Shown: positions 28,155 to 61,633 of the stretch, one piece after another
Numbering within the stretch: position 1 is the stretch's first letter
How the letters are laid out: each line of letters opens with the position of its first letter
Origin: Streptantibioticus cattleyicolor NRRL 8057 = DSM 46488
GTDB taxonomy: Bacteria; Actinomycetota; Actinomycetes; Streptomycetales; Streptomycetaceae
Direction: 5' to 3'
Length of the DNA stretch: 64,000 nt
NCBI RefSeq assembly: GCF_000240165.1
Contig: NC_017586.1
Location: 3,534,001 to 3,598,000 of the forward strand
Made by a program: the position numbers and the translations under genes
Notes under the pieces: model-generated
Told to the model about the DNA's origin: nothing
Seen by the model: only the letters and a program-made list of their open reading frames with translations
The model's database searches: none

Positions 28155-28331
28155 TTTTGCGCTTTCGGGGCTGGTGCGTATCCTGGTAGATCGTTTGATC
28201 CCATTGCCCGGCGCCGCATAGAGCGCCGCGTGGCGCGTTCCTTTTCTCCTGTGGCTGACCGCATCGAGGCGGTCGTATGCGAATCCGCGGAGCTGGCGCG
28301 TGCCCAGTCCTCCGAGAGGTTCAGCTTCAGC

Positions 28332-30518
28332 ATGGCTTTTGACATCGCCGACCGTTCCGGCCTGCCCGTGACCGACGAGACGACCGACGTGACGACCGAC
28401 GTGACCGTCGTCACCGACGAGACCACCGCCCCCGTCACCGACGACACCACCACCGGCGGCAACGGTGAGGCCCCCGAGGCCCCGGCCGCCGACACCGTGA
28501 CCTTCGCCGACCTCGGCCTGGCCGAGCAGGTCGTGCGCAAGCTCGCGCAGAACGGCGTGACCACCCCGTTCCCGATCCAGGCCGCCACCATCCCGGACGC
28601 GCTGGCCGGCAAGGACATCCTCGGCCGCGGCCGTACCGGCTCCGGCAAGACGCTCTCGTTCGGCCTGCCGCTGCTGACCACGCTGGCCGGCGGCCGTACC
28701 GAGGCCAAGCGCCCGCGCGGCGTGATCCTCACCCCCACCCGCGAGCTGGCCATGCAGGTCTCCGACGCGCTCCAGCCGTACGGCGACGTCCTGGGCCTGA
28801 AGCTCAAGGTGGTCTGCGGCGGCACCTCGATGTCCAACCAGATCTACGCCCTGGAGCGTGGCGTGGACATCCTGGTGGCCACCCCGGGCCGGCTGCGCGA
28901 CCTGATCGACCGCGGCGCCTGCGCGCTCGACGCGGTGAAGATCGCGGTGCTGGACGAGGCCGACCAGATGGCCGACATGGGCTTCCTGCCCGAGGTCACC
29001 GAGATCCTCGACCTGATCCCGCCGGGCGGCCAGCGGCTGCTGTTCTCCGCCACGCTGGAGAACGAGATCGACACCCTGGTCAAGCGGTACCTGGTCGACC
29101 CGGTCACCCACGAGGTGGACCCGTCGGCGGGCGCGGTCACCACCATGACCCACCACGTGCTCGTGGTGAAGCCCAAGGACAAGGCGCCGGTCACCGCGGC
29201 CATCGCGGCCCGCAAGGGGCGCACCATCATCTTCGTCCGCACCCAGATGGGCGCCGACCGGGTCGCCCAGCAGCTCGTCGAGGCGGGCGTGCGGGCCGAC
29301 GCGCTGCACGGCGGCATGACGCAGGGCGCCCGCACCCGCACGCTGGCCGACTTCAAGGACGGGTACGTCAACGTCCTGGTCGCCACCGACGTGGCCGCCC
29401 GAGGCATCCACGTGGACGGCATCGACCTGGTGCTCAACGTGGACCCGGCCGGCGACCACAAGGACTACCTGCACCGTTCGGGCCGCACCGCGCGGGCCGG
29501 CCGCAGCGGCACCGTGGTCTCCCTCGCCCTGCCGCACCAGCGCAAGCAGATCTTCCGGCTGATGGAGGACGCGGGCGTCGAGGCGAGCCGGCACGTCGTC
29601 GGCGGCGCCGGCGCCTTCGACGAGGACGTGGCCCGGATCACCGGCGCCCGCTCCCTCACCGAGGTGCAGGCGGACGCGGCGGTGAACGCGGCCCAGCAGG
29701 CTGAGCGCGAGGTGGTCCAACTCACCCGAGAGCTGGAGCGCGTTCAGCGGCAGGCGGCCGAACTCCGCGAGGAGGCCGACCGGTTGACCGCCCGTGCCGC
29801 CCGCGAACGCGGCGAGGTCCCGCAGGACGCCCCGGCCGCCCCGGTCGCTCAGGCCGCCGACGAGGCCCCCGCCGCCGTCACCGAGCCCGTCTCCGCCGAG
29901 GCCGCGACCGTCGCCGCCCCCGCCGCCGCCCCGTCCCGCACCACGGACGAGCCGCGCGAGCGCGGGTCGTACGAGCGCCGGCCCGAGCGCCGTCCGTACG
30001 ACCGGGACCGCCGTGACGACCGTCGCCCGTTCGACCGTGACCGTCGTGACGACCGTCGTCCCTTCGACCGCGACCGCCGTGACGACCGCCCGTCGTTCAG
30101 CCGGGACCGGGACCGGGACCGCCGTGACGACCGTCGTGACGACCGCCGTCCGTTCGACCGTGACCGTCGTGACGACCGTCGTCCCTTCGACCGCGACCGC
30201 CGTGACGACCGCCCGTCGTTCAACCGGGACCGGGACCGGGACCGCCGTGACGACCGTCGTGACGACCGCCGTCCGTTCGACCGCGAGCGCCGTGACGACC
30301 GTCCGTCCTTCAACCGCGATCGGCGTGAACACCGCGGCAGCGACCGTCCGTTCAACCGTGACCGTCGTGACGAGCGTCCGGCCTTCGGCCGGGACCGGGA
30401 CGCGGACCGCCGTCCGTACGGCCGCCGCGACGACCACCGGGGCGGCTCCTCGTTCGGCCCGGGCAGCCGTGGCCACGACCGGCGGGCCGACAAGCCCCGC
30501 TGGAAGCGGAACGGCTGA
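28332..30518 (+). CDS. DEAD-box RNA helicase with repeated Arg/Asp tail
   Basis: 728 residues from this ATG. After an acidic Thr/Asp-rich leader (1-55) comes a complete SF2 core: Q motif TPFPIQ, Walker [23 protein letters not shown] as LDEADQM, SAT, and [14 protein letters not shown] coiled segment follows (about 450-500), then 170 residues of [11 protein letters not shown]-type repeats. RhlE/CsdA-type enzymes remodel RNA, often in the cold. The frame is open back to a GTG at 28230; I preferred the ATG after GAGAGG. A possible promoter TTGCGC-N16-TATCCT lies at 28157-28184. Confidence 0.93.
30010..30300 (+). repeat. 123-bp tandem repeat inside the helicase gene
   Basis: TCGACCG marks recur at 30031, 30154 and 30277, exactly 123 bp apart, so two full units and part of a third are nearly identical. 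Each unit encodes 41 residues of the form [12 protein letters not shown]...PSF(N/S)RDRDRD. The period is a whole number of codons, so expansion or contraction keeps the frame. Confidence 0.9.
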
Positions 30519-32197: not shown

Positions 32198-32270
32198 GGG
32201 CCATTAGCTCAATTGGCAGAGCAGTGGACTTTTAATCCATTGGTTCAGGGTTCGAGCCCCTGATGGCCCA
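32198..32270 (+). tRNA. tRNA-Lys (TTT)
   Basis: 73-nt cloverleaf: GGGCCAT/ATGGCCC, D stem GCTC/GAGC, anticodon stem GTGGA/TCCAT around CTTTTAA, T stem CAGGG/CCCTG with TTCGAGC. Anticodon TTT. It borders the accessory block to its right, but no integrase or repeated 3' end was found. Confidence 0.97.
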
Positions 32271-32379
32271 CCGATCTTGACCGGGGTCGCCTGGTGTGAC
32301 CTGGGTCGGAGCGTTTCCGGGCGCGTGCGGGTCGCGGTTGGTGCCGCCCCGCTGGAGGTGCGCTGTCGGTACGAGGGTG

Positions 32380-32562
32380 TCAGGCGCCCTCGTACTCCCA
32401 GGCCCGCCCGGTCTGCCGGTACTCCTCCACCGGAATGATGCGCTCGGCTCCGTCGCGTTCGGCGGGCAGATCGAAGGCGCGGGCCGGTTCGGCGAGGATC
32501 CCGGCGCCGCCCTGGACGACGCCGAGGTCTCGCATGCGCTGGCTGGGCCGTACGTCAGTCAT
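32380..32562 (-). CDS. Small hypothetical protein in the ASCH/aaRS-like cluster
   Basis: 60 residues, MTDVRPSQRMRDLGVVQGG at the start and ERIIPVEEYRQTGRAWEYEGA at the end. No recognised domain or membrane segment. The ATG overlaps the upstream ASCH stop by 4 nt and follows GAGAGG-type sequence, so it is most likely a genuine, coupled gene. Function unknown. Confidence 0.65.
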   Translation of the reverse strand: MTDVRPSQRMRDLGVVQGGAGILAEPARAFDLPAERDGAERIIPVEEYRQTGRAWEYEGA

Positions 32563-32966
32563 GTGAGGTCCTCTTCACCGGGTGTCGCGTTCGGGGCCGG
32601 GTGAACTGCCGGGGCCGGAACGATCTCGATCTCGATGGCCAGGGCGCCGAGCGCTTCCTTTTCGGGCGGGTAGATCGCCCGGATGTTGGCGAGCTGCTCG
32701 TCGCGGCCGGCGGTCGGGTTGACGTTCGCGGGCCCTTCACCGTCGAGCAGCGCTTCGAAGCCGTCGTACGCCGTGACCCGCTTCACGCGGACGTCGCACG
32801 TCTCGTCGGTGCCCTTGATCCGGAAACGGATCACATCCTCGGCCGCCAGGTCTTCGAGATGCGGGTACCGCACCCGTACCTCGATCGTCTTGCGGCCGGT
32901 GGCTACCAGGTCGAAGTACCGGCGGTAGAGGTTGAGCTCGTGGATCCGAGCGGCGGTTTCCGTCAT
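32559..32966 (-). CDS. ASCH-domain protein
   Basis: 135 residues. HELNLYRRYFDLVATGRKTIEVRV is the ASCH signature (the GRKTIEVR loop), followed by VIRFRI and a beta-strand pattern, with VTAYDGFEALL further on. ASCH domains have a PUA-like fold and bind RNA; some are amidohydrolases acting on acetylcytidine (YqfB type). Either is possible. It overlaps by 4 nt with genes on both sides, so it belongs to one transcript with the synthetase-like protein upstream, consistent with an RNA-directed job. Confidence 0.85.
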   Translation of the reverse strand: MTETAARIHELNLYRRYFDLVATGRKTIEVRVRYPHLEDLAAEDVIRFRIKGTDETCDVRVKRVTAYDGFEALLDGEGPANVNPTAGRDEQLANIRAIYPPEKEALGALAIEIEIVPAPAVHPAPNATPGEEDLT

Positions 32967-34078
32967 GGGGAGGGGACGCTCCTGGTGGCTGGCGCGGTCA
33001 TCAGACGGCCGATTTCTGCGGCCGAGTACGAGCGGAAGAAATGCCGGGGGTCGCTGAGCAGTACCTCGGCCGTGGCGAGCAGCCGCTCGACGTACTCGGA
33101 CAACGATCCGGACCATGTACGGGTGTCGAGCATCCACGGCGCGGCGCCGTCGGGCAAGGACGCGTGTCCTTGCCCGATGAGGGACTTGGAGAGCTTGGCG
33201 CCGGTGTCGGTGACGACCTGCGGGCAGAACAACCGAGCGGGAAGCCGGTCGCCGACGGTCCCGACGGCCTGAAGGGCGCCGTCGACGAGCTGCGAGCCGA
33301 ACACCCAGTCACCGCCCTTGACCATCACGTACAGCGTGTCGAAGGTGCTGGTGAGCGCGAGTTCCTTGACCAGGTTCCGGTACAGGGTCGCCAGGCCGAG
33401 GTACCCGCCCCCTGTCGGCTCGACGGCGACCTCGTACGGTCCGTGGTGGAGGCAGACCGCGCTGATCTCGGCGCGCTCGACGCCGACCGGGTGTACGCGC
33501 GTGCGCTCGGCGTACTTCTCGGCCCATCCGCAACCTGGCCGCGGGCAGGGGACACGGACGTGTGGAACCCCGGTGGAGGGAGCCAGCCACCAGCGGGCCG
33601 CGTCGAGTCGGGGCAGCACGCGCAACCAGGTGCGTCGGTAGTGCTCGTCGGCCTGCTGACGTGAGTACGTCTCGATGCGGTACGGGATACGCAAGTTCTC
33701 GGACAGCTCGGCGAACAGGGGCCGGTAGAGGGCGTCCACCTGCTCGGTCACGGCCCGCTCGCCGAGTGCCTGCGCGTAAGCGCGCTGGTACCGGTGACCG
33801 GTGACGGCGTCGGTGACGACCTCGCGCGGGGCGTTGTCGAGAGCGCCGAACACGACCTCGACAGGAACGCCGAAACGGTGCCGGATGCGTTCCGCGGTGG
33901 CGAACGTGAGGGACTGGACGAGCGAGGTACCGATGTGCGGGGCGCCGTTGATCTGGGTCCCCACCACGAACACGACACGTTCGGGCATCGCGGCGTGGAT
34001 GCGGGGGGCGAGGACGTCCTCGGCGTTGATCAGCGCGTTGGCGAGCACGGTGCTCGGCGAGACAGGGTGAACGGTCAC
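32963..34078 (-). CDS. Stand-alone class I aminoacyl-tRNA-synthetase-like protein
   Basis: 371 residues. A HIGH-type motif (NGAPHIGTSL, HIG at 48-50), a zinc-binding insertion CPRPGC at 178-183 with Cys209/His211-212, and a KMSKS-type motif AKLSKSL at 294-300 mark a class I catalytic domain. VMVKGGDWVFGSQLVDGALQ near 251-270 recalls class I LysRS. Only about 70 residues follow KLSKS, so the anticodon-binding domain is missing. It may activate an amino acid for a carrier or a modified tRNA rather than for translation. Cotranscribed with an ASCH protein and an ATPase. Closest family is uncertain. Confidence 0.75.
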   Translation of the reverse strand: MTVHPVSPSTVLANALINAEDVLAPRIHAAMPERVVFVVGTQINGAPHIGTSLVQSLTFATAERIRHRFGVPVEVVFGALDNAPREVVTDAVTGHRYQRAYAQALGERAVTEQVDALYRPLFAELSENLRIPYRIETYSRQQADEHYRRTWLRVLPRLDAARWWLAPSTGVPHVRVPCPRPGCGWAEKYAERTRVHPVGVERAEISAVCLHHGPYEVAVEPTGGGYLGLATLYRNLVKELALTSTFDTLYVMVKGGDWVFGSQLVDGALQAVGTVGDRLPARLFCPQVVTDTGAKLSKSLIGQGHASLPDGAAPWMLDTRTWSGSLSEYVERLLATAEVLLSDPRHFFRSYSAAEIGRLMTAPATRSVPSP

Positions 34079-34094
34079 CGATCGGTCTCCTCGG

Positions 34095-34577
34095 TCAGGT
34101 GGACGGAACTTCGGCGAGATGCTGAGCAGTGATCGTGAACTCGATCCACACGACTTTCCCGCGCGGTGCGCGTGGCCTCACCCCCCACTCGTCCGCGAGT
34201 GTTTCCACCAGGAGCAGGCCGCGCCCCGTGGGGTCCTGCGTGTTCGGGTGGCGTGGGCGTGGGCGCCGACGGCTTGTGTCGTGCACCTCCACGCGCAGTC
34301 GTCCGCCGTCCATTCCAGCCTTGACGAGAAAGTGGTCGTCGGCCCGTAGCCCATGCCGTACGGCGTTCGTGGCGAGTTCCGTCAGGCAGAGCAACACGTC
34401 GTCGGAGCGGTCGATGACGTGCCATTGAGCGAGGGCGTGTCGCACCAGTGAACGGGCCGCGGGCACGGAGACGTCGGTGCGCGGAAAACGTCCGGTCACG
34501 GGTGCCGTCCGTGAGCGCGCTGCCGAAGGGGCGTCGCCGGGCATCGCCGGTGGGCTACCGTCGGTGTCGTTCCCCAT
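34095..34577 (-). CDS. Anti-sigma-type ATP-binding protein (HATPase_c_2)
   Basis: 160 residues of the RsbW/SpoIIAB-like fold: N box LTELATNAVRHG and G box DPTGRGLLLVETLADEWGV. The first about 30 residues are disordered. Streptomyces encodes many of these small ATPases, often beside HTH regulators; they may be anti-sigma kinases, but most are uncharacterised. First gene of the leftward ATPase / synthetase-like / ASCH / small-protein group, and divergent from the HTH/TPR regulator. Confidence 0.85.
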   Translation of the reverse strand: MGNDTDGSPPAMPGDAPSAARSRTAPVTGRFPRTDVSVPAARSLVRHALAQWHVIDRSDDVLLCLTELATNAVRHGLRADDHFLVKAGMDGGRLRVEVHDTSRRRPRPRHPNTQDPTGRGLLLVETLADEWGVRPRAPRGKVVWIEFTITAQHLAEVPST

Positions 34578-34712
34578 CGGTGCAACTCCCTTGCGCCCGT
34601 GACTGGTTACTGCACTCAGGCAACTGCTGTCGTGAGCGCGGGGGTACCGTCAGGAGGGGTCTCGAAGGGTGTCACTTCCGCTACCGCCCGTGCCGAGGGG
34701 TAAGAGGTCGAC

Positions 34713-36062
34713 ATGAAAGAGCCGAACACGGATCTCGCGCAAGCGCTTCAGCGATCCGGGTTGAGCAACAAGGAGCTGGCGCGTCGCATCAAAGCCGCAG
34801 CTCAGGCGTGGGGTGAGCCGCACGTCAACCCGAACGCGACCGCCGTGCGGCGCTGGCTCGACGGCCAGGAACCGCGTCCGCCGGTGCCCGACATCCTCGC
34901 CGATGTCTTCTCGGCGCACTTCGGATACCGGGTCACAACGTACGATCTCGGCCTCGGCAGGAGCCGGAGCGCTGATCGTTCGCTCGTTTACAACACGTCG
35001 TACGCCGTTACCGTGGAAGCTGTCGCCGACTTGGGGAGAGCGGACGTGGACCGTCGAAAGTTCTTGGCAGCGGCGCCCTTCGCCGCGGTGGCAGCCGTCG
35101 GGCCCTCCCGCGACTGGCTGCTCAACACCCTTGACCAGCAACCCGAGCCGGGGCCGCGGGTGCGCCTGGAAGACGTCGCTTCGGTCCGGAACATGTTCGG
35201 CGAGTTCCAGAAGATGGACGTCCTCCAGGGCGGTGGCTCCGGGCGGCTCGTCCTCGCCGAGTACATGAACCAGCACGTCTACCCGCTGCTTCGCCGCACC
35301 CACACCGAGGAGGTGCGGCGGGCGCTGTGCGAGGCCGCCGCCGAGCAGACGTATCTGCTCGGTTGGATGGCGTACGACAACGGCGAGCACGGTACGGCGC
35401 AGCGGTACCTGATCCAGTCTCTGCGGCTCGCCGAAGAGTCACGGAATCCGGCGCTCGGCGCGCATGTCCTGGCGGGCCTGGCCGACCAGGCGACTCTCCT
35501 GGGCAACCCCGAGGAAGGACGTCGCCTCGCGCAGGCCGGACGCGCCGGCCTCGGCCCGCGGACATCCGCGGCCTGCCTGGCCGACCTGTGGGCACTGGAG
35601 GCGCGCGCACTGGCCAGGCTGGGGGACAGGAGCGGGGCCACGCACGCGGTGGCCCAGTCGGAGGCGGCGTACACCCGGGTGCGCGTCGAGGAGGAACAGG
35701 AGTGGGCCGCCTTCATCGACCCCGCCTACCTCCACGGCGAACACGCCAACACCTTCCGCGACCTGGGCCAGGCCGCGATCGCGGAACAGCACGCCCGCCG
35801 GTCGATCGACCACGCCCGTCGGCAGCGACGCGCCCGGCGCGGCGCGATGTCCCACGCCGCCCTCGCCGCCTCCCACCTCCAACGGCGGGACCTGGAAGCC
35901 GCGCACGCCGCCGGACTGCGGACGCTCGCCTTGTCGAAGCAGGTCAAGAGCTCGCGCTGTGTCGAGGCCGTACAGGATCTCCAGCGGCGCATGAAGCCCT
36001 TCGGCCGGCACCGTCTCGTCGCCGACTTCACCGAACGCGCCCGCGAACTCGTCGCTTCCTAA
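34713..36062 (+). CDS. HTH/TPR regulator
   Basis: 449 residues. The N-terminal HTH (LSNKELARRIKAAAQ to AVRRWLDGQEPRPP, about 18-56) is followed by a linker with RRKFLAAAPFAAVAAVG, then a long alpha-helical TPR-like region (about 180-440) with repeats such as GTAQRYLIQSLRLAEES. Architecture like NsdA and other developmental repressors of Streptomyces. Divergent from the ATPase group, which it probably controls. Its stop codon is 9 nt from the IS110 transposase stop, so the insertion lies directly against its end. Confidence 0.82.
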   Translation: MKEPNTDLAQALQRSGLSNKELARRIKAAAQAWGEPHVNPNATAVRRWLDGQEPRPPVPDILADVFSAHFGYRVTTYDLGLGRSRSADRSLVYNTSYAVTVEAVADLGRADVDRRKFLAAAPFAAVAAVGPSRDWLLNTLDQQPEPGPRVRLEDVASVRNMFGEFQKMDVLQGGGSGRLVLAEYMNQHVYPLLRRTHTEEVRRALCEAAAEQTYLLGWMAYDNGEHGTAQRYLIQSLRLAEESRNPALGAHVLAGLADQATLLGNPEEGRRLAQAGRAGLGPRTSAACLADLWALEARALARLGDRSGATHAVAQSEAAYTRVRVEEEQEWAAFIDPAYLHGEHANTFRDLGQAAIAEQHARRSIDHARRQRRARRGAMSHAALAASHLQRRDLEAAHAAGLRTLALSKQVKSSRCVEAVQDLQRRMKPFGRHRLVADFTERARELVAS

Positions 36063-36070
36063 TGCTGTTG

Positions 36071-37267
36071 TCAAGCAGCCGTAGTCACTGGAGGTGCGAC
36101 TTGATAGCACCGTCGGTCACGGATCAGGGCCCACAGAACGTTGACGCGTCGGCGGGCGAGGGCGAGCACAGCTTGGACATGCTTCTTCCCCTCGGCGCGT
36201 TTGCGGTCGTAAAACGCCCTCGAGTTCGGGTCGTACCGGACGCTGACGAGCGCGGAGGTGTAGAAGACGCGCTGAAGTCTTCGGTGATAGACGGCAGGCC
36301 GGTGGAGGTTGCCGCTGACCTTGCCCGAGTCGCGGGGTGCGGGAGCGACGCCGGCGAAGGCCGCCAGGGCGTCCGGGGAGTCGAAACCGTCCAGACTGCC
36401 GCCGACGGCGGCAAGGAACTCCGCACCGAGCACGGTGCCGATGCCCGGGACGCTCTGCACTATGTCAGCGAGTTCGTGCTCGCGAAACCGGCCCTCGATG
36501 AGCTTGTCCATCTCGGAGATCTGCTCGTTGAGGGCCATCACCTCCTCGGCCAGGGTGTGGACCAGCCGCGCGATGGTCTTCTCCCCGGGGACGGCCGTGT
36601 GCTGGCGCTCGGCTGCCTCGACGACTGCTTCGGCGAGGGCTCTGGCGTTTCGGACCTTGCGGTTGGCCAGCCATTTGGTCAGCCGCGTGACGCCGGCGCG
36701 GCGGATCGCGGCCGGGGTCTGGTAGCCCGTCAGCAGCTTGAGCGGGCCGGTGTTGGTCAGGTCCAGGGCCCGTTCCAGGGCAGGGAACATGCCCAGCAGC
36801 GTGCCGCGCAGGCGGTTCACCGAGCGGGTGCGGTCCTCGACGAGGTCGCCGCGGCGGCCGGTCAGCAGCCGCAGTTCGATGGCGGCTTCGTCGCCGGGGC
36901 GGACGGGCCGCAGGTCGCGGCGCATCCTGGCCTGGTCGGCGATCACGTAGGCGTCGCGGGCGTCGGTCTTGCCCTCTCCGCGGTAGCCATCGGAGGCCCG
37001 GTTCACCAGTCGGCCGGGGATGTAGAGGATCTCCTGGCCGTGGCTGACCAGCAGGGCCAGCAGCAGCGCGGGTTCCCCGCCGGTCATGTCGATGGCCCAG
37101 GTGACCTGACGGCCGTCGGCCAGGTCCAGGACGTCGCCGATCAGCTTCAGCAGCTCGGGCTCGTCGTTGGCGACCCGCCGCGACAACAGGGTCTTGCCGT
37201 CTGCGTCCAGTGCGAGGCCGTGATGGTGGCCCTTGCCGCTGTCGATCCCCGCCCATATCCGGCTCAT
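36071..37267 (-). CDS. IS110-family transposase
   Basis: 398 residues. N-terminal RuvC-like DEDD domain: WAGIDSGKGHHHGLAL, then WAIDMTGGEPALLL, and GEGKTDARDAYVIAD with acidic residues. C-terminal Transposase_20 domain: VQSVPGIGTVLGAEFLAAVGG and ALAAFAGVAPAPRDSGK, with the serine typical of this recombinase. Intact. IS110 elements have no terminal inverted repeats and are directed by a bridge RNA from a non-coding end, so element limits cannot be fixed here. On this strand the upstream non-coding space (37268-37426) is the place to look for that RNA. Confidence 0.95.
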   Translation of the reverse strand: MSRIWAGIDSGKGHHHGLALDADGKTLLSRRVANDEPELLKLIGDVLDLADGRQVTWAIDMTGGEPALLLALLVSHGQEILYIPGRLVNRASDGYRGEGKTDARDAYVIADQARMRRDLRPVRPGDEAAIELRLLTGRRGDLVEDRTRSVNRLRGTLLGMFPALERALDLTNTGPLKLLTGYQTPAAIRRAGVTRLTKWLANRKVRNARALAEAVVEAAERQHTAVPGEKTIARLVHTLAEEVMALNEQISEMDKLIEGRFREHELADIVQSVPGIGTVLGAEFLAAVGGSLDGFDSPDALAAFAGVAPAPRDSGKVSGNLHRPAVYHRRLQRVFYTSALVSVRYDPNSRAFYDRKRAEGKKHVQAVLALARRRVNVLWALIRDRRCYQVAPPVTTAA

Positions 37268-37426
37268 CGTGCTCCTGACGTGCGTGTTCGTTCTGTTCGT
37301 GCCACGGACGACCTCGCCGGCATTGCTCTACTCAGCGACTTGTTCGCCGCCTGACGGCCACCGAGCGTGTCGTCCCCTCGGCTCCGCGAGCCGGACGGAG
37401 GACGATGGCCGGGGGAAAGGGGAGAG

Positions 37427-37861
37427 ATGACAGTCAGCGAGCCCCGGACGTCCGGCGCCGCAAAGGGCACCGGAGTGGCCGTCCTCATCACCAACAGCCA
37501 GGGCGAGTACCTGCTGCACCTGCGCGACGACATCGAAGGGATCTGCTGGCCCGGCTACTGGGCGCTGGTGGGCGGAAGTCCCGAACCCGGCGAGCCGTTG
37601 GCGGACGCCATCGCGCGGGAGTTGAAGGAGGAGACCGGACTCACCATCGCGCTGGAGGAGTTCGCCACCGTTGCGCAGCGGGGTGCCGAGGACCTCGGCA
37701 AAGGTCCCATCGCCGTCTATCAGGGGCATTGGGACGGTGACGCCCACGCCCTCCCGCTCACCGAGGGCGTCATGCTGCATTGGTTTCCGGTGACGACGAT
37801 TCCCCGGCTTCGGGTTCCGCCGTGGTGCCGGGAAGTGATCGGCCTCCATCGGGCGCGTTGA
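37427..37861 (+). CDS. NUDIX hydrolase
   Basis: 144 residues. The NUDIX box is complete: GGSPEPGEPLADAIARELKEE followed by TGL, with the GE...REL.EE core, so metal-dependent pyrophosphohydrolase activity is expected. LLHLRDDIEGICWPGYWALVGG precedes it. Substrate not predictable. ATG at 37427 follows AAAGGGGAGAG. It may have been part of the accessory group before the IS110 insertion. Confidence 0.9.
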   Translation: MTVSEPRTSGAAKGTGVAVLITNSQGEYLLHLRDDIEGICWPGYWALVGGSPEPGEPLADAIARELKEETGLTIALEEFATVAQRGAEDLGKGPIAVYQGHWDGDAHALPLTEGVMLHWFPVTTIPRLRVPPWCREVIGLHRAR

Positions 37862-37950
37862 CCGCCGGGCGCACTCCTCGGCGTAACGGGTCGATCACAC
37901 CCACCCCCCGGGTGGTTCGCCCGTGTCAGGCTGCGTCTGGCGGATGTGTC

Positions 37951-38595
37951 GTGAATGTGTGGGGGTGGGTCGTGGGTGGGGCGCGGATATCGGGGGGTTC
38001 GGGGCGGCGGGGGAAGAAGGTCGCGTGGGGGGTGGGGGGCGCGGTGGGGGTGTTGGTGGTGGTCGGGGTGATCGGGAACGCCGTCGATCCGCGGCCGGAC
38101 AAGGTGGTGGACGCGGGGCCGGCGGTGGCGTCGCCGTCGCCGACGCCGTCGGGGGAGTTACCGGTGCTGACGGGGCGGATGCTGACCGACGCGCGGCTGG
38201 CGGCGCGGGAGGCGGGGTTCACGCGGCTGGTCACGCATGACGCGACGGGTGCCCGGCGCGGGCAGGGGAGCGCGGCGGACTGGAAGGTGTGCTTCCAGCG
38301 GCCGGTGCCGGGGCAGGCGCGTACCGACGCCGCCGTCGATCTGGCCGTCGTGCTCGCCACCGAGCGCTGCCCCACCGCCGACGGCCGCCCGGCCCCGGTC
38401 CGTACCCGCGCCACGCCGCCCGTGGTCGGGACCCCGGCGGCCCCGTCGCAGTCACCGACACCGACACCGACCGACGACGGCACGGGCGACGACAGCGGCC
38501 CCACCGCCGCGTGCAACGACGGCACCCTCTCCTACGCCGTCCACCACCAGGGCGCCTGCTCGCACCACCACGGCGTCGCCGAGTGGTACCGCTGA
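37951..38595 (+). CDS. Membrane-anchored PASTA/DUF3761 protein
   Basis: 214 residues. One membrane segment (about 28-48, VAWGVGGAVGVLVVVGVIG), a short Pro/Ser linker, a PASTA-like domain (LPVLTGRMLTDARLAAREAGF to about 130), a second Pro/Thr linker, and a Cys/His C-terminus, CNDGTLSYAVHHQGACSHHHG then VAEWY, that matches DUF3761. Orientation is probably outside, with the wall-binding part exported. The start is uncertain: GTG at 37951 or 37957. Confidence 0.7.
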   Translation: MNVWGWVVGGARISGGSGRRGKKVAWGVGGAVGVLVVVGVIGNAVDPRPDKVVDAGPAVASPSPTPSGELPVLTGRMLTDARLAAREAGFTRLVTHDATGARRGQGSAADWKVCFQRPVPGQARTDAAVDLAVVLATERCPTADGRPAPVRTRATPPVVGTPAAPSQSPTPTPTDDGTGDDSGPTAACNDGTLSYAVHHQGACSHHHGVAEWYR

Positions 38596-38608
38596 GGGGC
38601 TACCGAGG

Positions 38609-38827
38609 TCAGCCCTGTTCCTCGTCGAGCCGGAAGCCCACCTTCAGCGCCACCTGGTAGTGCTCGATCCGGCCGTTCTCCAGTTGGCCGCGTACCTGGA
38701 GGACCTCGAACCAGTCGAGGTTGCGCAGGGTCCGCGCGGCGCGCTGGACGGCGTTGCGGATCGCGGCGTCGACGCCTTCGTGCGACGAGCCGACGATCTC
38801 GGTCACCCGGTAGACGTGTTCGGACAT
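38609..38827 (-). CDS. Dodecin
   Basis: 72 residues. MSEHVYRVTEIVGSSHEGVD, the W of NLDWFEVLQVRGQL and QVALKVGFRLDE give the dodecin family. The dodecameric hollow protein stores flavin. ATG at 38827 follows CGGAGG. The frame extends upstream, but that part is non-conserved. Confidence 0.95.
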   Translation of the reverse strand: MSEHVYRVTEIVGSSHEGVDAAIRNAVQRAARTLRNLDWFEVLQVRGQLENGRIEHYQVALKVGFRLDEEQG

Positions 38828-47737: not shown

Positions 47738-47869
47738 GTGATGCCCCGGTGGCCCACGGTGAGCCAAAGGGGGGATTCGGGCGAACGGCTTGGATTCAAA
47801 CCCCGAGTCTATTAACGTTCGATAACGCAACGCGGTCGGAAACGTCACCGACTCGGTGGCACCGTGCGC

Positions 47870-48010
47870 CGTCGCCGAATCCCGCGCGCTCACCGCGCCG
47901 TGGGAACCGGGGAACCACCTTCTGGGGTGAATCGGGCTGATCAGAGGCGACTCTGACGGCCCGTAGGAGACCTTCCTGCTCCGAACCCGTCAGCTAACCC
48001 GGTAGGCGGA
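47870..48010 (+). ncRNA. c-di-AMP riboswitch (ydaO/yuaA type)
   Basis: The leader contains the conserved blocks of this class in actinobacteria: CGTGGGAACCGGGGAACCACC, GGGGTGAATCGG, and CCGAACCCGTCAGCTAACCCGG, the last followed by TAGGCGG. The order and spacing match. It lies directly upstream of an M23 peptidase gene, the usual arrangement in Streptomyces, where c-di-AMP switches off wall-hydrolase expression. A GGAAGGAAAGGAG purine tract carrying the ribosome site follows. Ends are approximate. Confidence 0.88.
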
Positions 48011-48034
48011 AGGAAGGAAAGGAGTGCGCCAGCA

Positions 48035-60741: not shown

Positions 60742-61633
60742 GCGCACTCCTCGTCGCGCTCGCCGGCCCGTCCGCCGCGGGCCGCGGCTCGATCCGATCG
60801 CTCCGACCGGCTGCCCTGTGCGGCCGGCAGCATCGGCCGGCCGTCGGTCGCCCCCCAGGGGCCGTGGCCGAGCCCCGAGCCGTCGGGACGTCCGCTCCTC
60901 GGGTAAACCCAGCGTAGTTCGCCGCATCCCGACCGTTAAGAGGCCGTGTTTCGGATGGCGAGATTCCTGCCAACCGAACGATCGCCGGCCGCATCGCAAA
61001 AGCCCCGGTACGGCGGGTCGGGTGGGTACTGGTGTACGTGCTACCGGTCCGTGTGGCCGTGCGCCCGGCCGTGCGCTCTGTGCCGTGCGGGACGTCGGCG
61101 CTTGAGTGGAGGGCGTGGGTCGGCCCCCGTCGAAACTGCGGCTTCGGACAATTCGGCGGAGGCCAGGGGACACCGTCGCCTCATTCCCCGCGGGCGGCGG
61201 ATCCGGTCCGGGGGGCGTGCCGACGCCCCCCGGACCGATGAGTCGGACCGGATGCCGATGGCCGGTGGACGCGGTATCACTTTGGCGTGAAACCGCCGGT
61301 TTAGGGCTCCGGTTCGTGGCGTACCGCCCGTTTCCGGACCGTCGGAGGGGGAGGCCCGGCCCGGGCGGTACGCCACCCGACGCACCGCAAAGCCCCTGAG
61401 AACGGACGAAACAGTCCGTACGGGATGAGGCATTTGGCATACGGCACTTGGCATACCGCGAACAGGGATGTATGCCGTATTCCGCCGCATAATGTCCGAT
61501 CCTTCCCTCGCACCGGCACACCGCCCGCCGCTCGCCGCCCGTCCGCCCCCGAAGCCGCGTGGCAGCATGGTGCCTTTACGGCGCGGCAGTTCACGGGCGC
61601 CGGGCCAGTTGCCCATGGCCGGTGGAGGCTGCG
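60742..61633. other. Long non-coding gap
   Basis: 892 bp between divergent genes. Open frames here have no recognisable domain and biased Arg/Pro composition. The right end has repeated elements listed separately. Confidence 0.45.
61434..61480. promoter_or_regulatory. Paired TTGGCATAC repeats and an inverted partner
   Basis: TTGGCATAC occurs at 61434 and 61448, 14 bp apart. ATACGGCA (61439-61446) is the reverse complement of TGCCGTAT (61473-61480). The cluster lies 154 bp before the asparagine-synthetase-like gene and looks like a multi-site operator. The binder is not known. Confidence 0.45.

Follow-up and report, generated by a model that had tools for sequence, protein, structure and literature searches.

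We describe a synthetase-ASCH gene pair located in a 64,000-nt stretch (the window, to which all coordinates refer) of the 8.1-Mb genome of Streptantibioticus cattleyicolor NRRL 8057 = DSM 46488 (Streptomycetaceae; NC_017586.1). A class I aminoacyl-tRNA-synthetase-like protein of 371 residues and an ASCH-domain protein form a conserved unit in which the partnership is near-obligate, and this pair is accessory cargo of phages, plasmids and integrative elements. The first protein is, as read from its sequence, a stand-alone catalytic core of the class I lysyl-tRNA synthetase (LysRS-I) type, intact and apparently active. In the window, the pair is found in the following setting:

34095-34577, minus strand: HATPase_c_2 anti-sigma-type ATPase (PF13581, 2e-17), the first gene of the operon
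32963-34078, minus strand: class I aminoacyl-tRNA-synthetase-like protein, 371 residues, GTG start, LysRS-I-type core with a zinc-type insertion
32559-32966, minus strand: ASCH-domain protein (PF04266), 135 residues, translationally coupled partner
34713-36062, plus strand: divergent NsdA-family HTH/TPR regulator (NF053720, 7e-128)
32198-32272, plus strand: tRNA-Lys(UUU), where the cassette-bearing element probably integrated

The reading frames of the operon, the upstream ATPase, the divergent regulator and the 4-nt overlaps (ASCH/synthetase-like at 32963-32966; a 60-codon reading frame/ASCH at 32559-32562) are exactly as claimed in a first-pass annotation of the window, which had proposed a tRNA- or adenylate-based function for this cassette.

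The gene for the 371-residue protein is not a chance reading frame. HIG (residues 48-50), KLSKS (295-299), a zinc-type insertion (Cys178, Cys183, Cys209 and His212) and the lack of room for an anticodon domain had all been pointed out and are all present. H48, G50, T51, C183, C209, H212, D257, K295 and K298 are retained in 101 of 101 full-length homologues (23-76% identical), across which HIGT and KLSKS are near-invariant. The ratio of nonsynonymous to synonymous substitution rates (dN/dS) of the gene, determined against six relatives, is 0.22-0.30, indicating purifying selection. Next to the 101 intact copies there are 14 decayed (split or truncated) ones, as expected of accessory cargo. With its motifs invariant and its context kept, the gene is neither a pseudogene of an ordinary synthetase nor placed in an unconserved neighbourhood, the two outcomes that would have spoken against the original proposal.

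No Pfam or NCBIfam model, including PF01921 and PF00749, matched the protein at E ≤ 0.1, and a PDB sequence search with the protein or its profile returned nothing meaningful; a homologue from Macrococcus reached 21.9 bits against PF01921, for which the cut-off is 27. PHROG 35625, labelled 'tRNA synthetase', matched at 1e-193. An AlphaFold (AF2) model, for which the alignment comprised 41 rows and three rows from plasmid or phage records were left out, had a predicted local distance difference test score (pLDDT) of 89.4 and a predicted template-modelling score (pTM) of 0.89. When this model was submitted to Foldseek, class I LysRS 1irx ranked first (E = 1.1e-7), followed by GluRS, GlnRS, BshC, CysRS and MshC, with PyrN-C also listed; TM-scores of 0.4-0.5 are to be read as 'same superfamily', not as 'same family'. 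In hhalign, a LysRS-I profile made from five proteins aligned over 278 columns with a probability of 92% (E = 5.6e-7), compared with 5% (CysRS) and 2% (MetRS), and HIGT and KLSKS fell on HLGN and KMSSS of LysRS-I, respectively. LysRS-I, which had been the first guess for the family, is thus the nearest by hhalign and by Foldseek alike.

The chain stops about 70 residues past KLSKS, where the model contains short helices only, and consequently lacks an anticodon-binding domain. Moreover, the Ser/Thr found in LysRS-I two positions after the first-motif Gly is replaced by a near-invariant Gln42, and the His after GxD by a near-invariant Trp258. We take these two LysRS-I positions to participate in lysine binding, and their replacement therefore points to a different amino-acid substrate. 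Because another locus of the genome (L001; 382.8 bits, over the Pfam cut-off) encodes a complete class I LysRS, the gene in the window is an extra one.

ASCH is a PUA-like nucleic-acid-binding domain. The partner protein scores 42.5 bits against PF04266 (cut-off 21.2; 1.2e-10), and its GxKxxExR signature is kept in 93 of 93 partners. Its nearest solved structures are the archaeal proteins PH0355, PF0469 and PF0455, deposited as hypothetical (E of 1e-15 or better), and the counterpart in phage Picard is covered by PHROG 19935, annotated 'RNA binding protein'. A role as nucleoside amidohydrolase, which the annotation had offered alongside RNA binding, does not hold. The YqfB-type N4-acetylcytidine amidohydrolases share the ASCH fold and the Lys of GxK, and YqfB requires Lys21, Thr24 and Glu74 (PMC6972931). 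However, its nucleophile Thr24 corresponds to Glu29 in the window protein and to Glu in all 93 partners. Similarity to YqfB is remote (0.014), the N4-acetylcytidine amidohydrolase structure 9kyf is matched with an E value of 0.005, and the score with the NCBIfam amidohydrolase model is 13 for a cut-off of 93. Since the catalytic Thr is replaced, nucleic-acid or nucleobase binding is left.

In nearly all loci scanned, the ASCH gene lies directly downstream of the synthetase-like gene, and in 98 of the 98 loci having both they are on the same strand; a neighbourhood survey, as had been suggested, thus finds the pairing kept. Thirteen relatives (L048, L077, L080, L092-L094, L096-L101 and L113) carry one fused synthetase-ASCH protein of 474-489 residues, the model of which is confident (pLDDT 88, pTM 0.81). 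As L048 stands apart from the main fused groups on the tree, fusion or fission took place more than once. On Macrococcus plasmids, where the synthetase-like protein is 23% identical, the overlapping next gene encodes a 137-residue protein with KxxExR, whose relatives in Lactobacillaceae carry GRKTLEYRN and have a pair of restriction-modification genes as neighbours. This Macrococcus partner scored 25.7 with the ASCH profile in hhalign (maximum of 15 in 20 shuffles); given a probability of only 18% and an alignment that falls on the KxxExR signature, its ASCH-like assignment is evidence at the level of the motif.

A species-level genome collection contained 124 candidate loci with relatives, of which 80 were kept. 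The gene was present in 34 of 299 Streptomycetaceae genomes, whereas a sample of 297 genomes from across the phylum yielded only 3 carriers. Plasmid carriers belong to Streptomyces, Amycolatopsis, Prauserella, Pantoea and Macrococcus, and viral carriers comprise the temperate phages Picard and Mojorita and 12 viral contigs; querying viral contigs with the Pantoea and Macrococcus proteins gave no matches. Other copies sit on relaxase-bearing elements of conjugative or mobilisable type. In Picard and Mojorita, the two genes are situated between the lysis genes and a serine integrase. Picard gp28-gp29, annotated by name only, are the same pair with the same coupling (73% and ∼80% identical). A mobility hallmark (relaxase, MobC, integrase or phage structural gene) was present within 8 kb at 28 of 66 loci of the chromosomal collection and in none of 40 same-sized control stretches taken from relatives, a contrast that is inflated because the set of hallmarks was derived partly from the case loci themselves.

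The tRNA-Lys(UUU) gene, missed in the earlier annotation, lies 108 nt from the end of the cassette. The same tRNA-Lys is abutted in one relative (G008/L198) by a 569-residue integrase-like protein (tyrosine integrase) and in another (G012/L196) by a probable C-terminal integrase remnant, both assigned from sequence reading alone. A third (G006) has two copies of the tRNA-Lys, and there 7 kb of variable DNA lie ahead of the dodecin gene, whose counterpart in the window follows at 38609. The G+C content at third codon positions (GC3) of the cassette, 0.76-0.88, is lower than that of the permease (0.97). tRNA genes occur in only a few of 60 loci examined and their kinds differ, with Lys in the window, Arg in L003 and Ser in L044. 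Because the neighbouring tRNA differs between loci, tRNA-Lys would mark the insertion site and not the substrate, and it is best read as a probable attachment site. For the same reason, deducing a LysRS substrate from the adjacent tRNA-Lys was rejected, as was an orthogonal tRNA/synthetase pair, given that the cassette contains neither a tRNA nor an Rfam RNA. The window contains no repeat of the tRNA-Lys 3' end that could form a direct-repeat att site, so that the borders of the element cannot be drawn. In relatives, the interval from tRNA-Lys to dodecin (32198-38609) is a variable integration hotspot, whose contents differ among L196, L197 and L198.

Upstream of the pair there is usually a gene for a small protein, which is a HATPase in about half of the loci, together with a divergent or nearby HTH/TPR regulator. 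Both had been pointed out beside the pair: they do recur, but the ATPase only in about half of the loci, and the regulators seem to be exchangeable. A HATPase gene precedes the pair in many loci and also occurs in the phages Picard, SV1, Raleigh and Tubberson. Temperate phages (SV1, ToastyFinz, Raleigh, Tubberson and SoJo) encode regulators 75-77% identical to that of the window. The stretch between the lysis genes and the serine integrase, in which the pair is found in Picard, houses the regulator gene in SV1-like phages and, in three of them (SV1, Raleigh and Tubberson), also a gene annotated as histidine-kinase-type or as a regulator. Since the combination of NsdA/TPR regulator and HATPase is found without the pair in SV1, it represents a general control module. 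The regulator groups are unrelated to each other (NsdA-type; REG4 with an S-adenosylmethionine (SAM) methyltransferase; TPR11 with DUF218/WbqC; others with an HD protein). At L016, L041, L036, L059 and other loci, each HTH/TPR regulator is accompanied by an enzyme gene of its own (SAM methyltransferase; DUF218 and WbqC; HD phosphohydrolase), as though the two travelled as exchangeable pairs on mobile elements. A methyltransferase shared among Pantoea, the biosynthetic cluster described below and the REG4 loci was considered and dropped, the three being unrelated by BLAST. On several Streptomyces plasmids a PycTM-type effector is encoded just upstream of the pair (L116:5182-5664), with no cyclase annotated beside it.

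Some relatives are found near biosynthetic genes. Three Streptomycetaceae genomes (L176-L178) carry an ASCH-less copy in a conserved putative biosynthetic cluster (L176:767-12535), encoding an MFS protein, an SbnA-like PALP protein, an SbnB-like OCD protein, a carbamoyltransferase, a SAM methyltransferase, the LysRS-like ligase, a PhyH dioxygenase and an amino-acid ABC importer. This gene content suggests a product derived from diaminopropionate/ureidoalanine. The ASCH-less branch is long and nests with the fused ASCH proteins, and may therefore reflect a later recruitment. Mobilisable Macrococcus plasmids (L115:4134-8048 and L182) encode two ATP-grasp ligases, the synthetase-like protein and the ASCH-like protein, with a divergent MFS exporter, and this operon lies beside a tyrosine recombinase. 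In Pantoea, the synthetase-like gene is next to genes for a methyltransferase, a LOG-type protein, a DMT exporter and a Ham1-type NTPase.

GluQ-RS, which attaches glutamate to the queuosine of tRNA-Asp, offers a precedent for a function in RNA modification. Our tentative reading, held with somewhat less than even confidence as a whole, is that the cassette is regulated accessory cargo of mobile elements, with a two-subunit enzyme acting on RNA at its core. The pair would use ATP to convert an amino acid into its aminoacyl-adenylate, and this amino acid would probably not be lysine bound in the normal way, as Gln42 and Trp258 replace the LysRS-I pocket. ASCH would take the place of the absent anticodon domain and present the acceptor, most likely a (modified) tRNA base that would receive the aminoacyl group as queuosine does from GluQ-RS. 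The RNA thus modified may then be of use to the element or to its host under stress or in conflict; certainty decreases from each of these steps to the next. The acceptor recognised by ASCH is probably RNA and possibly a nucleoside-like metabolite. RNA is favoured because ASCH is PUA-like and devoid of the hydrolase nucleophile, because the anticodon domain is missing and because of GluQ-RS. A more specific version, in which the pair is a hitherto undescribed enzyme system that attaches the aminoacyl group to a base of tRNA or of some other RNA chosen by ASCH, acts as weapon or shield in conflicts, and had its core recruited later without ASCH into natural-product biosynthesis, strikes us as rather unlikely in its entirety. 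Several points weigh against this reading. ASCH domains can act on nucleosides too; the location of the ASCH-less copies of L176-L178 in a metabolite cluster and of the ASCH-paired Macrococcus homologue with an MFS exporter and a pair of ATP-grasp ligases suggests a small-molecule acceptor; and the mobility contrast is inflated, as mentioned above.

These same genomic contexts, with the amino-acid-derived nature of the L176-L178 cluster and the Pantoea neighbours added, would be expected of a small-molecule ligase that transfers the amino acid to a metabolite, nucleoside or nucleotide, with ASCH as a nucleobase-like acceptor pocket, and yields a signal, toxin or self-protection compound, much like MshC or the MetRS-like hydrazine synthetases. 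The presence of MshC, BshC and PyrN-C in the Foldseek list fits as well, and class I synthetase paralogues have been predicted to act as peptide ligases (PMC2922099). On the other hand, the cassettes of Streptomyces phages, plasmids and integrative elements share no other common biosynthetic gene, the ASCH-less cluster branch looks derived, and ASCH is PUA-like; we regard such a ligase as distinctly possible, if doubtful. The phage location beside an integrase, plasmid carriage, the PycTM effector at some plasmid loci and the ratio of decayed to intact copies would also suit a toxin-antitoxin or abortive-infection system, in which the synthetase would act as the toxin on host tRNA (by misacylation, modification or sequestration) under restraint by ASCH or by the ATPase and regulator, in defence or superinfection exclusion. 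Yet a PADLOC scan of synthetase, ASCH, ATPase and regulator matched none of its families, fusion into one polypeptide is unusual for a toxin and its antitoxin, and the common regulators occur without the pair in SV1. Such a system is improbable. As for the defence mechanism suggested by the first-pass annotation, which may still apply, carriage by mobile elements is in keeping with it, but no PADLOC model matched.

The nearness to LysRS-I and, for the window copy, to tRNA-Lys(UUU) might instead indicate an ordinary truncated LysRS isoform charging tRNA-Lys, for instance in inhibitor resistance or in compensation of damaged tRNA-Lys. This is very unlikely in view of the full LysRS-I already encoded in the genome, the missing anticodon domain, the lack of a PF01921 match, the altered pocket residues and the change of adjacent tRNA to Arg and Ser elsewhere. 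A degenerate fragment or misannotated reading frame without function would explain the lack of Pfam and NCBIfam matches, but is hardly credible and is refuted by conservation: motifs are invariant, dN/dS is low (0.22-0.30), the operon is conserved and the fold is confident.

The window protein shares the Rossmann core, the HIGH/KMSKS-type motifs and the zinc-type insertion with class I LysRS (LysRS1/LysK, PF01921, 1irx), whereas it is ∼140-240 residues shorter than the LysRS-I reading frames used for comparison, has no anticodon domain, has invariant pocket residues of its own, and belongs to a mobile operon with ASCH. GluQ-RS (YadB) is likewise a stand-alone class I core without an anticodon domain and illustrates how a tRNA base could be the acceptor. 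In contrast to GluQ-RS, the window protein has an ASCH partner and no PF00749 match, and by fold search it is nearest to LysRS-I and not to GluRS, whose structures come directly after LysRS in the Foldseek ranking. MshC, BshC and the MetRS-like/PyrN ligases (PMC2922099; 8hfm, 4wbd, 9l8v) also reuse a class I core for ligation outside translation. They differ in synthetase lineage and from the mobile-element context seen here, and the small beta-barrel partner of MetRS-like systems is a cupin where that of the window pair is ASCH. The 2010 prediction of peptide ligases among class I synthetase paralogues does not contain the terms LysRS and ASCH (PMC2922099), and literature searches for ASCH together with synthetase gave no description of a LysRS-I-like/ASCH pair. 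The homology itself is not new, as phage annotators had named the genes 'tRNA synthetase' and 'RNA binding protein'; pairing, fusion, distribution and the LysRS-I relation appear to be undescribed in the literature searched. Stand-alone synthetase paralogues are known, but a LysRS-I-derived family without Pfam or NCBIfam model that has ASCH as its near-obligate, sometimes fused, partner and is carried by mobile elements did not turn up in that literature. It becomes testable which amino acid and which acceptor are used and why mobile elements keep the pair, and phage Picard of S. venezuelae ATCC 10712 is a ready laboratory system.

Three further features lie next to the cassette:

32380-32562, minus strand: 60-residue reading frame, uncertain and outside the conserved cassette; overlaps ASCH by 4 nt; GC3 0.85
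36071-37267, minus strand: IS110-family transposase (PF01548, 2e-50; NF033542, 4e-69), a later insertion
37427-37861: NUDIX gene, beyond the IS110 insertion

The 60-residue protein had been listed as a cassette member; it has no relative in more than 100 other cassettes examined, and no Pfam, NCBIfam or PHROG match. The NUDIX gene, proposed for inclusion in the survey, was likewise rejected as a cassette gene: it is cut off here by the IS110 transposase, and NUDIX genes, which lie near a few other loci, do not recur constantly beside the pair. It may once have directly followed the NsdA-type regulator. Elsewhere in the window, a DEAD-box-helicase-like protein (28230-30518) has a long repetitive tail, opposite which long spurious open frames are kept. 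A c-di-AMP riboswitch is present at 47863-48023 (RF00379, 89.9 bits), and the small RNA Scr4115 at 61113-61239 scores barely above the gathering score.

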